Part shown: positions 32,290 to 34,811 of the stretch, piece after piece | Numbering within the stretch: position 1 is the first letter of the stretch | How the letters are laid out: every line of letters begins with the position of its first letter | Source of the DNA: Novosphingobium sp. PC22D | GTDB lineage: Bacteria > Pseudomonadota > Alphaproteobacteria > Sphingomonadales > Sphingomonadaceae | Direction of reading: 5' to 3' | Length of the DNA stretch: 64,000 nt | Assembly (NCBI RefSeq): GCF_002556635.1 | Contig: NZ_MWMO01000003.1 | Location: forward strand, 1-64,000 | Program-made: the position numbers and the translations under genes | The notes under the pieces: generated by a model | Told to the model about the DNA's origin: nothing | Databases searched by the model: none | Seen by the model: the letters and a program-made list of their open reading frames with translations, nothing else

Positions 32290-32664
32290 TCAGATCCACG
32301 CCTGTTCGGAATGTCCGAAGACCCGCTGCACTTCGAGCACGAGGTCGCGCAAGTGGAACGGCTTGGAGAGCACCTTGGCCTGCGGCGCCTCGCGGCTGGC
32401 GCGCAGGCTGACCGCGGCGAAGCCGGTGATGAACATGATCTTGGTGGCGGGCGAGATGCGCGCGCATTGCTGGGCGAGTTCGATCCCGTCCATCTCGGGC
32501 ATCACGATGTCGGAGAGCAGAAGGTCGAATTTTTCCTGCTCCAGGCAAGGTATCGCGTCGGTTCCGCGATCGACGGCAACCACCTCGTAGCCCGCGTTTT
32601 CCAGCGCGCGTTCGAGGTAGGTGCGCATGGCCGGATCGTCTTCGGCAAGCAGGATTCGGATCAT
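32290..32664 (-). CDS. cpdR: single-domain response regulator CpdR
   Basis: A stand-alone receiver domain of 124 residues with acidic pocket Asp9/Asp10 (LLAEDD), phospho-acceptor Asp52 (LLLSDIVMPEMDG), Thr80 (IMFITGF) and Lys101 (VLSKPFH). Length and sequence match CpdR, which, when unphosphorylated, primes ClpXP for degradation of cell-cycle proteins in Caulobacter and relatives. Its phosphate comes from CckA through ChpT, and CckA is encoded in this window at 17159-19594. The C-terminal tail HSEQAWI is short. The gene is monocistronic. Confidence 0.9.
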   Translation of the reverse strand: MIRILLAEDDPAMRTYLERALENAGYEVVAVDRGTDAIPCLEQEKFDLLLSDIVMPEMDGIELAQQCARISPATKIMFITGFAAVSLRASREAPQAKVLSKPFHLRDLVLEVQRVFGHSEQAWI

Positions 32665-32818
32665 GTCCCTCTCGTGTGAAGCTGAGGTGTGGTTCCAGGT
32701 CGCCGTTACCCGCGTCGGCGCTCGCCAGGAGACATAGCATCAAGGAGTTAAAAATCTTGGCCGGGTTTGACGGTGCCCGGCTTTGACACAGATGTTCGAA
32801 AAGGTCAGGAAATGTCCG

Positions 32819-33769
32819 ATGAATCCCATTGGCGGCGAGAACGATTCGCAAAGGCGCGACTGCGGGGCGATTCCCGGCGCGCCGGGGATTCCCGCCTTCA
32901 GTCTGTTCGGCCCCGACCCTTCGAGAATTCCGGTAATGATCGCGGTTCCGCACGCTGGACGGGTCTATCCGCGCGCGCTGCTGCGCGACATGCGCCACGC
33001 CGATCTCGCCGCGCTCAAGCTCGAGGACCGCTACGCCGACCGACTGGCGCATGCCGTGGCCCGCGAAACCGGCGCGGCGCTTCTGATCGCCAATGCGCCG
33101 CGCGCGATGATCGATCTCAACCGCGCGCCTGACGATGTCGACTGGGAGATGTTCCCGCGCGGTTCGGCCGGCGAACGCATGCAGCGCGCGCCGAGCCGCA
33201 GGGCGCGCAGCGGCCTGGGACTGATCCCGCGCCGGCTCTCCGGTATCGGCGAAATCTGGCGTCGGCGTCAGGACCTGGCCGACCTCGATGCGCGCATCGC
33301 CGGTGTCCATGGCCCTTATCACGAAACGCTCGCGAGCACTCTGGCGCAGTTGCAGGCGCGTTGGGGCGCGGCGCTGCTGCTCGATCTCCATTCGATGCCG
33401 CCGCTCGCGTCCAACGGTGGAAGGGGCGGCCCGCACTTCGTCATCGGCGACCGTTTCGGAGCCTCGTGCCACGGCGGCATCACCGCCGCCGCCTTTTCTT
33501 GCTTCCACGGAGCGAATCAGGAAGCCGCGCATAACCGACCCTATGCGGGCGGCTATGTGCTCGAACGCCATTCGGACACGTCGCGCGGATTGCACGCGAT
33601 CCAGCTCGAGATCGACCGGAGTCGTTACCTCGACAGCAGGCTTGCGGAGCCAGGGCCCGGATTCGATGATGTCGCGGCCTTGCTGACGAACCTGGTGCGC
33701 GATCTCGCGCAGGAGGTCTCGCAGCTCGGCCAGCTTGGCGACGAGGGTATGCGGCAAGCGGCCGAATAG
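32819..33769 (+). CDS. N-formylglutamate amidohydrolase family protein
   Basis: A 316-residue member of the N-formylglutamate amidohydrolase (HutG-like) family, which releases formate from N-formylglutamate in histidine degradation. Conserved parts include VMIAVPHAGRVYP, EDRYADRLAHAVARETGA, NAPRAMIDLNRAPDD, the metal-site LLLDLHSMPPL, HNRPYAGGYVLERH and ihaIQLEIDRSRYLD. I chose ATG 32819, preceded by AGGAAA; ATG 32792 in the same frame is the alternative. No other hut gene is nearby, so the substrate may be another N-formyl or N-acyl amino acid. Confidence 0.85.
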   Translation: MNPIGGENDSQRRDCGAIPGAPGIPAFSLFGPDPSRIPVMIAVPHAGRVYPRALLRDMRHADLAALKLEDRYADRLAHAVARETGAALLIANAPRAMIDLNRAPDDVDWEMFPRGSAGERMQRAPSRRARSGLGLIPRRLSGIGEIWRRRQDLADLDARIAGVHGPYHETLASTLAQLQARWGAALLLDLHSMPPLASNGGRGGPHFVIGDRFGASCHGGITAAAFSCFHGANQEAAHNRPYAGGYVLERHSDTSRGLHAIQLEIDRSRYLDSRLAEPGPGFDDVAALLTNLVRDLAQEVSQLGQLGDEGMRQAAE

Positions 33770-33829
33770 GCGCGCAAGCGCTTGCGCTCAGGCGGGTTTA
33801 CCCAAGCAAGTCAGACACTTGCCTTCTTA

Positions 33830-33985
33830 TAAAGAAACCACCTCGCGCGATGCGCGAGGTGGCCAAGGTTCAGGGAGGAGGTGCACGAAGTGCACCGAAT
33901 CTCATCAGGCCATGAGGGTAGCACTGACAAGACGTCCTCGAATATATGCGAGGAGGGGGGCAGTTACAAGCCCCCGCATTGTCCT
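33830..33985 (-). ncRNA. probable trans-acting small RNA with a CCUCCUCCC motif
   Basis: Five consecutive stem-loops fill this stretch: 33956-33975, 33936-33953, 33901-33916, GGTGCAC/GTGCACC 33880-33896, and CCACCTCGCGC/GCGCGAGGTGG 33838-33862. Read on the minus strand, the last stem is followed by TTTCTTTAT, an intrinsic terminator, which sets the strand and 3' end. Between the last two stems the minus strand reads CCUCCUCCC (33881-33873), an anti-Shine-Dalgarno motif known from several alphaproteobacterial small RNAs (the cuckoo and alpha-r type families). It lies about 65 nt after sapC on the same strand, so it could be processed from the sapC 3' UTR or have its own promoter. The 5' end is uncertain. 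Confidence 0.6.
33905..33979 (-). CDS. possible 24-codon small ORF within the structured RNA
   Basis: An ATG at 33979 with GGAGAGG about 8 nt upstream opens a frame of 24 codons encoding a short hydrophobic-basic peptide (begins MRGLVTAPLL, ends SATLMA). It overlaps the first three hairpins of the predicted small RNA. Some alphaproteobacterial small RNAs arise from transcripts that also encode tiny proteins. This is speculative: length is below what coding statistics can support. Confidence 0.25.
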   Translation of the reverse strand: MRGLVTAPLLAYIRGRLVSATLMA

Positions 33986-34040
33986 TGCCTCTCCAACGGT
34001 CGCGCGGCGCGGGCGCCGCGCCGCGTTCTCCCGCGAAAAA

Positions 34041-34811
34041 TCAGACCTGCTGCGCGAGCTGCTGCGGCGCCTTGCCCTGCTTGACCTGGCGGCCGAAGAT
34101 GTCACGCACCAGTTCGAGCGAGAAGAGGTGGGCGTAGAGCAGCGCGAGGATGCCGTTGCGGTTCCACTCGCGCAGGATGTCGCCGCGCACTTCACGCAGC
34201 TTCTTCTCGTCGACCATGCGGAAACCGCGATAGGTGAAGGGCTTGCCTTCGGCTTCGATGGTCAGTTCGCCGTCCATCATCAGGTCGTTCTTCTTGAGGA
34301 CATCGAGGAACTGGCCGGTCTTGGCGCCGGCGGTCTCGAAGTTCTCGCAGAACTTGAGCGTCTGCTGGCAGGATTCGCTGGGTTCGCCGTTTTCGAACAA
34401 GGGGCGGCCCTCGTCGAACTCGCCGACCAGTTCGCTGGTCGGATCGAAGCAGAGCGAGAGGTCTTCCTTCTCGGGATTGATCTTCGCAAGCAGGAACGGA
34501 TAGCGGCGGACGTAGGCGGGGACGTAGACCGGGGTGTTCATCGTGCCGTCGTCGTCGAAGAAGACGTTGACGCCTTCGTTCATGCCCATCAGCGCGAGCG
34601 GAACCGGGTTCTCGCCAGCGGAGAATACGATCGGGAAGTGGCGCTGCGCTTGCGGAAACTCCTCGACGGTCAACGGCACCGCGTGCGTGTTGACGAGCCA
34701 GGCGGCCTTGTCGGTGGAGCGGGTCTTGTAGTTGGCGTGTTCCTGCGTGTTGAGCGGGATCAGGTCCTTGTAGAAAAGCGGAAGCGAAGCGGTCTTCGGC
34801 GCACTGGCCAT
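34041..34811 (-). CDS. SapC family protein
   Basis: A 256-residue SapC-family protein (named after an S-layer gene cluster component). It begins APKTASLPLFYKDLIPLNTQ and contains FPIVFSAGENPVPLALMGMN, VPAYVRRYPFLL and FCENFETAGAKTGQFLDVLKK, all typical of this family in sphingomonads and Caulobacter relatives. It has no signal peptide or membrane segment. A cytoplasmic role in surface-layer or envelope biogenesis is suggested only by the family name. It is monocistronic apart from the possible small RNA downstream. Confidence 0.9.
   Translation of the reverse strand: MASAPKTASLPLFYKDLIPLNTQEHANYKTRSTDKAAWLVNTHAVPLTVEEFPQAQRHFPIVFSAGENPVPLALMGMNEGVNVFFDDDGTMNTPVYVPAYVRRYPFLLAKINPEKEDLSLCFDPTSELVGEFDEGRPLFENGEPSESCQQTLKFCENFETAGAKTGQFLDVLKKNDLMMDGELTIEAEGKPFTYRGFRMVDEKKLREVRGDILREWNRNGILALLYAHLFSLELVRDIFGRQVKQGKAPQQLAQQV

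Follow-up and report, generated by a model that had tools for sequence, protein, structure and literature searches.

The closest described counterparts of the element reported here are the alpha-r8 small RNAs (MmgR, SuhB and SisA). Most species are described as having one alpha-r8 RNA adjoining the gene for N-formylglutamate amidohydrolase (FGase), and the RNA so placed in Caulobacter is sisA; the traits given for the group are intrinsic termination and a weak hairpin followed by an unpaired UUUCCUCCCU (PMC12559287). The same report describes repression of a TonB-dependent receptor mRNA by SisA, whose core pairs upstream of the start codon as judged by compensatory mutations, and places further receptors among its targets. 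S. meliloti sm8 is listed as suhB, between SMc04042 and SMc04043 (PMC2573895). MmgR is presented as an Hfq-dependent RNA that keeps PHB accumulation in check and whose direct targets had yet to be identified at the time of review (PMC7143759, PMC8401924). In Sphingopyxis granuli TFA, a SuhB of 61 nt is reported to act by Hfq-dependent repression at a 5' UTR (PMC6563040). Alpha-r8 RNAs occur in many alphaproteobacteria and probably block the ribosome-binding sites of nutrient-uptake genes.

The element studied here occupies the minus strand between sapC and the convergent FGase gene, within a stretch of 64,000 nt (the window, meaning the whole stretch of DNA analyzed). As the original prediction proposed, this place very probably holds a gene for a minus-strand regulatory small RNA beside sapC. 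Its predicted unpaired anti-Shine-Dalgarno core is set in a conserved, covarying structure. The features of the locus are the following.

32290-32664, minus strand: cpdR, a cell-cycle response regulator gene and conserved near neighbor (NF046022, 194.9 bits, cut-off 180).
32783-33769, plus strand: FGase gene, convergent, conserved neighbor (PF05013, 203.9 bits).
33827-33934, minus strand: predicted small RNA of about 108 nt with three hairpins, single copy (fold, covariance model, promoter).
33827-33835, minus strand: U-rich tail, interrupted by C (sequence, alignment).
33836-33864, minus strand: hairpin 3, predicted intrinsic terminator stem, 13 bp (terminator scan, covariation).
33865-33879, minus strand: predicted unpaired linker UCCUCCCUGAACCUU, the anti-Shine-Dalgarno core, between hairpins 2 and 3 (fold, motif count).
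33880-33896, minus strand: hairpin 2, 7 bp, UUC loop (fold, covariation).
33899-33933, minus strand: hairpin 1, 10 + 4 bp, C-rich loop CCCUCA at 33918-33913 (fold, covariation).
33905-33979, minus strand: 24-codon open reading frame spanning the promoter and the 5' hairpin, judged spurious (open reading frame).
33941-33946, minus strand: putative -10 box TATATT, spacer 17 (promoter scan).
33964-33969, minus strand: putative -35 box TTGTAA (promoter scan; the -35 begins with TTG in 101 of 133 homologues).
34041-34811, minus strand: sapC, upstream of the RNA on the same strand (PF07277, 233.6 bits).

The window FGase scores 95.2 bits against NCBIfam TIGR02017, under the cut-off of 278.75, and its stop codon lies 57 nt from the predicted 3' end of the RNA. 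Within this gap, a small hairpin with a T-rich tail on the plus strand (33806-33822) may be the FGase terminator.

A single sigma-70-like promoter, TTGTAA-N17-TATATT, was found between 33700 and 34100 (minus strand, 33969-33941; 9/12 matches), against a mean of 0.1 in shuffled versions of that sequence. Equivalents occur in the homologues, where the best -10 lies at most 6 nt from the equivalent distance to the core in 104 of 133 sequences and where the mean match of 7.9/12 is a modest excess over the 6.9 of mononucleotide shuffles. This fits the dedicated promoter that had been offered as one origin of the RNA. If transcription begins some seven bases beyond the -10 box, the predicted 5' end is 33934. 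Since this promoter overlaps the first two of the five hairpins originally drawn, the predicted transcript has about 108 nt and three hairpins; the structured, U-tailed minus-strand element is present at its proposed place, and those first two hairpins (33935-33975) are more likely promoter DNA than RNA structure. Indeed, their 56 nt have a modest z of -2.35 (3 of 200 shuffles as good), compared with -51.6 kcal/mol and z -8.2 for the 108-nt transcript (33934-33827; none of 200 shuffles as stable) and -79.5 kcal/mol and z -7.2 for the 161 nt initially delimited (0/200 as good). The U-tail of the window RNA is broken by C, and most homologues have six U. The -35 box sits within an inverted repeat, GGGGGCTTGTAACTGCCCCC (33956-33975), which may be the site of a regulator; a search of all fetched loci for a single strict form of this dyad found none.

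The motif on which the original prediction centered is a 9-mer (CCTCCTCCC, that is, CCUCCUCCC) at 33881-33873 on the minus strand, said to be exposed between the final two hairpins. Seven of its bases are predicted to be free (unpaired probability, 0.95 to 0.99), and the leading two C belong to the stem of hairpin 2 (0.00). As a hallmark, the 9-mer alone is not unusual: it occurs once in the window against 0.80 expected, and 59 of 134 homologues carry it unchanged. What sets the element apart from chance is its structure, conservation, covariation, and synteny rather than the motif. Across the 134 homologues, the opening nine bases of CTCCCTGAACC (CTCCCTGAA), with which the core starts, have a mean unpaired probability of only 0.68 (5th percentile, 0.37), and in 133 of them the 5' part of the RNA carries three or more consecutive C, with a mean unpaired probability of 0.97. 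The antisense of the core, GGGAGGAGGTG, looks like a GTG start with its ribosome-binding site and opens a 67-codon frame on the plus strand (33881-34084); such sites may lead to spurious gene predictions on the strand facing these RNAs.

A BLASTN search with the element found matches in 111 of 149 genomes of its own family, the Sphingomonadaceae; in one of these, G012, the sole match falls beyond the portion of the query that corresponds to the RNA. A core 20-mer occurs without mismatch in at least 120 records of the named genome collection; almost all of the 80 matches listed are titled Sphingomonadales or its genera, and a few are labelled more broadly or differently (Alphaproteobacteria, for instance, or an actinobacterial title in the case of L079). 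We assembled 150 homologue loci, the window itself included, from 120 chosen by the exact core 20-mer and the best 30 by BLAST; some are near-duplicates, and several are cut by contig ends. The 149 usable sequences were reduced to 134 by removal of near-duplicates; L024, L040, and L041 were dropped for unusual layout, and 75 were picked at <80% identity. Seven with odd layout (L051, L087, L108, L117, L145, L150, and L151) were left out by hand, so the share of paired cells in the resulting 68-sequence alignment (A1) may be raised. In all 68 rows CCTCCCTGAACCTTGGCCACC is identical, an invariance due partly to selection, since 120 of the 150 loci were chosen by the exact core 20-mer; none of the pairs changed on both sides involves the 21 invariant bases.

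The check for covariation among sphingomonad homologues that had been proposed gave a strong result. Changes on both sides were seen in 24 of 31 pairs, with 87.9% of cells paired against 36 to 48% in slid control structures, and none of 500 shuffles reached any of five measures. The pairing scheme was that of the window RNA, an advantage for it over slid versions; the 269 cells with double changes nevertheless exceed the at most 119 of the slid versions by a large margin. By hairpin, pairs changed on both sides number 11 of 12 modelled in hairpin 1 (72.3% of cells paired), 7 of 7 in hairpin 2 (94.5%), and 6 of 12 modelled in hairpin 3 (99.0%), and the 5' hairpin is thus supported by covariation in sphingomonads. 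The covariance model built from the 68 homologues, R1, has one full-length match in the source genome (33827-33939, 106.3 bits) and finds the RNA in 226 of 296 genomes of the Sphingomonadales (213 of 273 of good quality); among the 226 are 57 genomes from other families of the order, which score more weakly. In a class-wide sample searched with strict filters, 28 of 385 genomes matched, four in the family itself and 24 outside the order.

FGase adjacency, the locus trait of alpha-r8, is present at the window RNA and in 138 of the 150 homologue loci, and cpdR lies within the fetched stretch in 121. The 13-bp stem and U-rich tail provide the intrinsic terminator, and a hairpin, an unpaired CCUCCCU, and a terminator follow in the same order as in MmgR/SuhB. 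The window core CCUCCUCCCU, standing where MmgR has UUUCCUCCCU, shares 8 of 10 letters with it, at a position that fits; the two differing bases are paired in hairpin 2, and eight are free. The exact 10-mer occurs in 8 of 134 homologues and is not exact in the window. Beyond the core, the window RNA differs from RF00519 in its extra 5' hairpin with a C-rich loop, and its predicted length of about 108 nt compares with the 77 nt given for MmgR (PMC7143759). Like SisA as described in Caulobacter, it stands beside FGase while its sibling copies are dispersed, and it has an anti-Shine-Dalgarno core.

Against the Rfam suhB model (RF00519), the window RNA scores 29.5 bits (E 1.5e-4), below the 41-bit gathering cut-off, and it is therefore outside RF00519 as the curators' threshold defines it. 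Ten of 20 homologue loci of its family score 27.7 to 36.2 bits, and none of the 20 exceeds 41. In 59 family genomes searched with the suhB model, eight of the matches listed fall at places found by BLASTN, all below the cut-off (30.2 to 34.4 bits), and the listed matches above the cut-off lie elsewhere. Outside the family the picture differs: 19 of the 20 R1 loci scanned (of 25) outside the order, and 18 of 20 scanned (of 21) in other families of the Sphingomonadales, are Rfam suhB above the cut-off. FGase is present in 17 of these 21 loci and in 17 of the 25 outside the order (8 without), six of the latter also having cpdR. That a model built solely from sphingomonads finds FGase-linked Rfam suhB RNAs in other orders argues for homology with alpha-r8, and the suhB/mmgR relationship that was to be tested through Rfam is supported by these matches and by FGase synteny.

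Taken with the locus, terminator, and layout traits and the eight shared core letters, this makes the window RNA, very likely, a syntenic homologue of alpha-r8 that has diverged in sphingomonads, is still linked to FGase, and would act in trans as an anti-Shine-Dalgarno repressor; the promoter-like sequence, structure, covariation, synteny, and homology are read directly from the DNA. The RNA has drifted so far in this group that the standard Rfam cut-off misses it. Upstream of the Rfam-covered part, a fold with z < -1 was seen in 62 of the 68 sphingomonad sequences and in 19 of the 25 R1 loci outside the order, the latter proportion being biased, as hairpin 1 is part of the model that retrieved those loci; a C-rich loop in the 5' hairpin occurs in few of the 25 (e.g., L172 to L174). 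Among the papers searched, we found none on an FGase-linked RNA in Sphingomonas; a broader literature search on sphingomonad small RNAs had no sphingomonad title among the matches listed, and a text search of a Zymomonas small RNA paper (PMC7064620) found no link to the window RNA.

The sphingomonads also carry dispersed suhB copies. In the source genome, four copies exceed the cut-off and a fifth scores 40.4 bits (L031 to L035), all at other loci. An exact TTCGCACTTGC stands about 25 to 35 nt upstream of the Rfam match in all five and in 19 of 29 copies from other genomes (L226 to L254). Of the 291 fetched loci, these 24, all dispersed suhB copies, are the only ones with the motif, which keeps a nearly constant distance and looks like a shared promoter element; the window RNA is without it. 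In this the sphingomonad copies, which often share TTCGCACTTGC, differ from Caulobacter SisA-D, whose promoters are described as unrelated and sharing no motif (PMC12559287). The SuhB described in strain TFA is a sphingomonad RNA under the same Rfam name as the family of the window RNA, and by its 61-nt length alone it would fit the dispersed copies L031 to L035 rather than the window RNA.

The original prediction mentioned cuckoo and alpha-r types, and a distinct small RNA, alpha-r14/NfeR1-like or cuckoo/CcsR-like, might resemble MmgR through convergence on CCUCCC; we consider this improbable. Alpha-r14 (NfeR1) and alpha-r15 (AbcR) are described as having three hairpins with anti-Shine-Dalgarno motifs, which in alpha-r14 are unpaired in all hairpin loops (PMC7143759), and the two C-rich unpaired sites of the window RNA recall such loop motifs. 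However, its core is in a linker, and only hairpin 1 has a C-rich loop. Sub-threshold ar14 (RF02344) matches occur in 4 of 20 homologue loci (27.4 to 32.5 bits), but with 23.4 bits the window is far under the 58.8-bit cut-off. Among its eight Rfam matches up to E 10 there is no cuckoo, CcsR, or ar15 name, which presumes for the first that Rfam includes a cuckoo model, and the neighbors differ from those of alpha-r14 and alpha-r15. Cuckoo/CcsR RNAs are described as often found with a DUF1127 protein gene (PMC10253847), whereas the upstream protein here is SapC and FGase lies downstream. Moreover, FGase/cpdR synteny is common to suhB RNAs of other orders and is not expected from convergence.

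Slightly less credible still is a derivation from the sapC 3' UTR, or a terminator element, with feedback on sapC, as had been suggested from the position downstream of sapC on the same strand. Although sapC lies within the fetched stretch in 139 of the 150 loci, it is 0.7 to 3.7 kb off in some (e.g., L043, L060, L061, and L104) while the RNA stays at FGase, and the RNA is preceded by a promoter-like sequence of its own that has counterparts in the homologues, which speaks against a 3' UTR origin. Neighbors were further compared in 30 hand-picked R1-positive genomes: 21 from other families, out of the 57 listed, and nine from the same family. The nine own-family loci, chosen for weak or several R1 matches, comprise four with sapC, FGase, and cpdR, three with sapC and without FGase, and two with neither. 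No sapC was found in the 21 loci from other families or in the 25 R1 loci outside the order, each with flanks of about 1.5 kb; in these loci, as in the nine, neighbors scored missing may lie further off. The RNA-sapC linkage is thus seen only in the Sphingomonadaceae. Pairing of the core with the start regions of sapC (-10.1 kcal/mol) and cpdR (-10.6 kcal/mol) is unremarkable, and the start of the single phasin gene found, a function linked to MmgR, pairs poorly (-8.6 kcal/mol), so neither sapC feedback, which had been extended to envelope genes, nor a phasin link is supported.

It is also hardly probable that the element serves the convergent FGase gene as an antisense or terminator element without targets in trans. 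FGase is the most widely shared neighbor of the RNA, but the predicted RNA stops short of the FGase stop codon, its core is conserved, unpaired, and anti-Shine-Dalgarno, and the dispersed suhB copies sit away from the FGase locus. A short coding RNA can be practically discounted, since the open frame of 24 codons noted as overlapping the RNA (33979-33905) starts upstream of the -35 box and so is untranslatable from the predicted RNA, and its homologous stretch is promoter-like sequence plus a covarying hairpin.

For the FGase-linked alpha-r8 homologue, the analogy with SisA and MmgR implies an Hfq-dependent trans repressor, and we infer transcription, Hfq binding, repression, and targets on this basis. 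A sigma-70-type promoter would drive an RNA of about 108 nt with three hairpins, ending at the intrinsic terminator. The unpaired CCUCCCUGAACC would pair with the Shine-Dalgarno regions of several mRNAs, probably on Hfq, leading to repression, and the C-rich loop of hairpin 1 may make a second mRNA contact. Following the Caulobacter precedent, the likeliest targets would be TonB-dependent receptors and other nutrient-uptake genes; receptor targets are reported as shown for SisA and are proposed here.

Candidate targets were sought among 30 of the 73 Plug-domain matches of the source genome and by an exact-pattern search, in place of a genome-wide prediction. The exact complement of the core, TTCAGGGAGG, occurs at seven sites in the genome, and the reversed pattern at one. 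Of the seven, one is in the RNA gene, two precede start codons of long open reading frames, and four are not at recognizable starts. One of the two at start codons belongs to a TonB-dependent receptor gene with three ATGs in succession and is 5 nt from the first of them (L289, G000:C15), and the other lies 6 nt before the start of NrsF (L287, G000:C3). Both putative ribosome-binding sites are exactly complementary to 10 bases of the core, making these two genes candidate targets. Across the 30 receptor start regions, pairing with the core was not significantly better than in 32 crude controls (P = 0.068), nor was pairing with the hairpin 1 loop (P = 0.38), and the receptor regions had stronger Shine-Dalgarno sites than the controls; we do not count this comparison as support, because it is not significant and the controls are poor window gene calls. 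Three exact core-complement sites (L286, L288, and L291) were also considered, by folding, as candidates for a CrfA-like sponge; of these, L288 falls within a long open reading frame.

Sphingomonads are widely studied for pollutant degradation and for their association with plants. The RNA described here gives them a candidate riboregulator that is conserved, keeps to one locus, and escapes the Rfam cut-off. Since Rfam labels the dispersed copies "suhB," comparisons of SuhB between sphingomonads, rhizobia, and Caulobacter by label only may pair non-equivalent copies. We tentatively speculate that in sphingomonads the ancestral FGase-linked alpha-r8 RNA became a two-site regulator, with a C-rich loop in its 5' hairpin and a lengthened core (CCUCCCUGAACC), that the MmgR-like role may have passed to the dispersed, TTCGCACTTGC-driven copies, and that the old copy might now control other mRNAs, such as those for TonB-dependent receptors and sigma/NrsF stress control.
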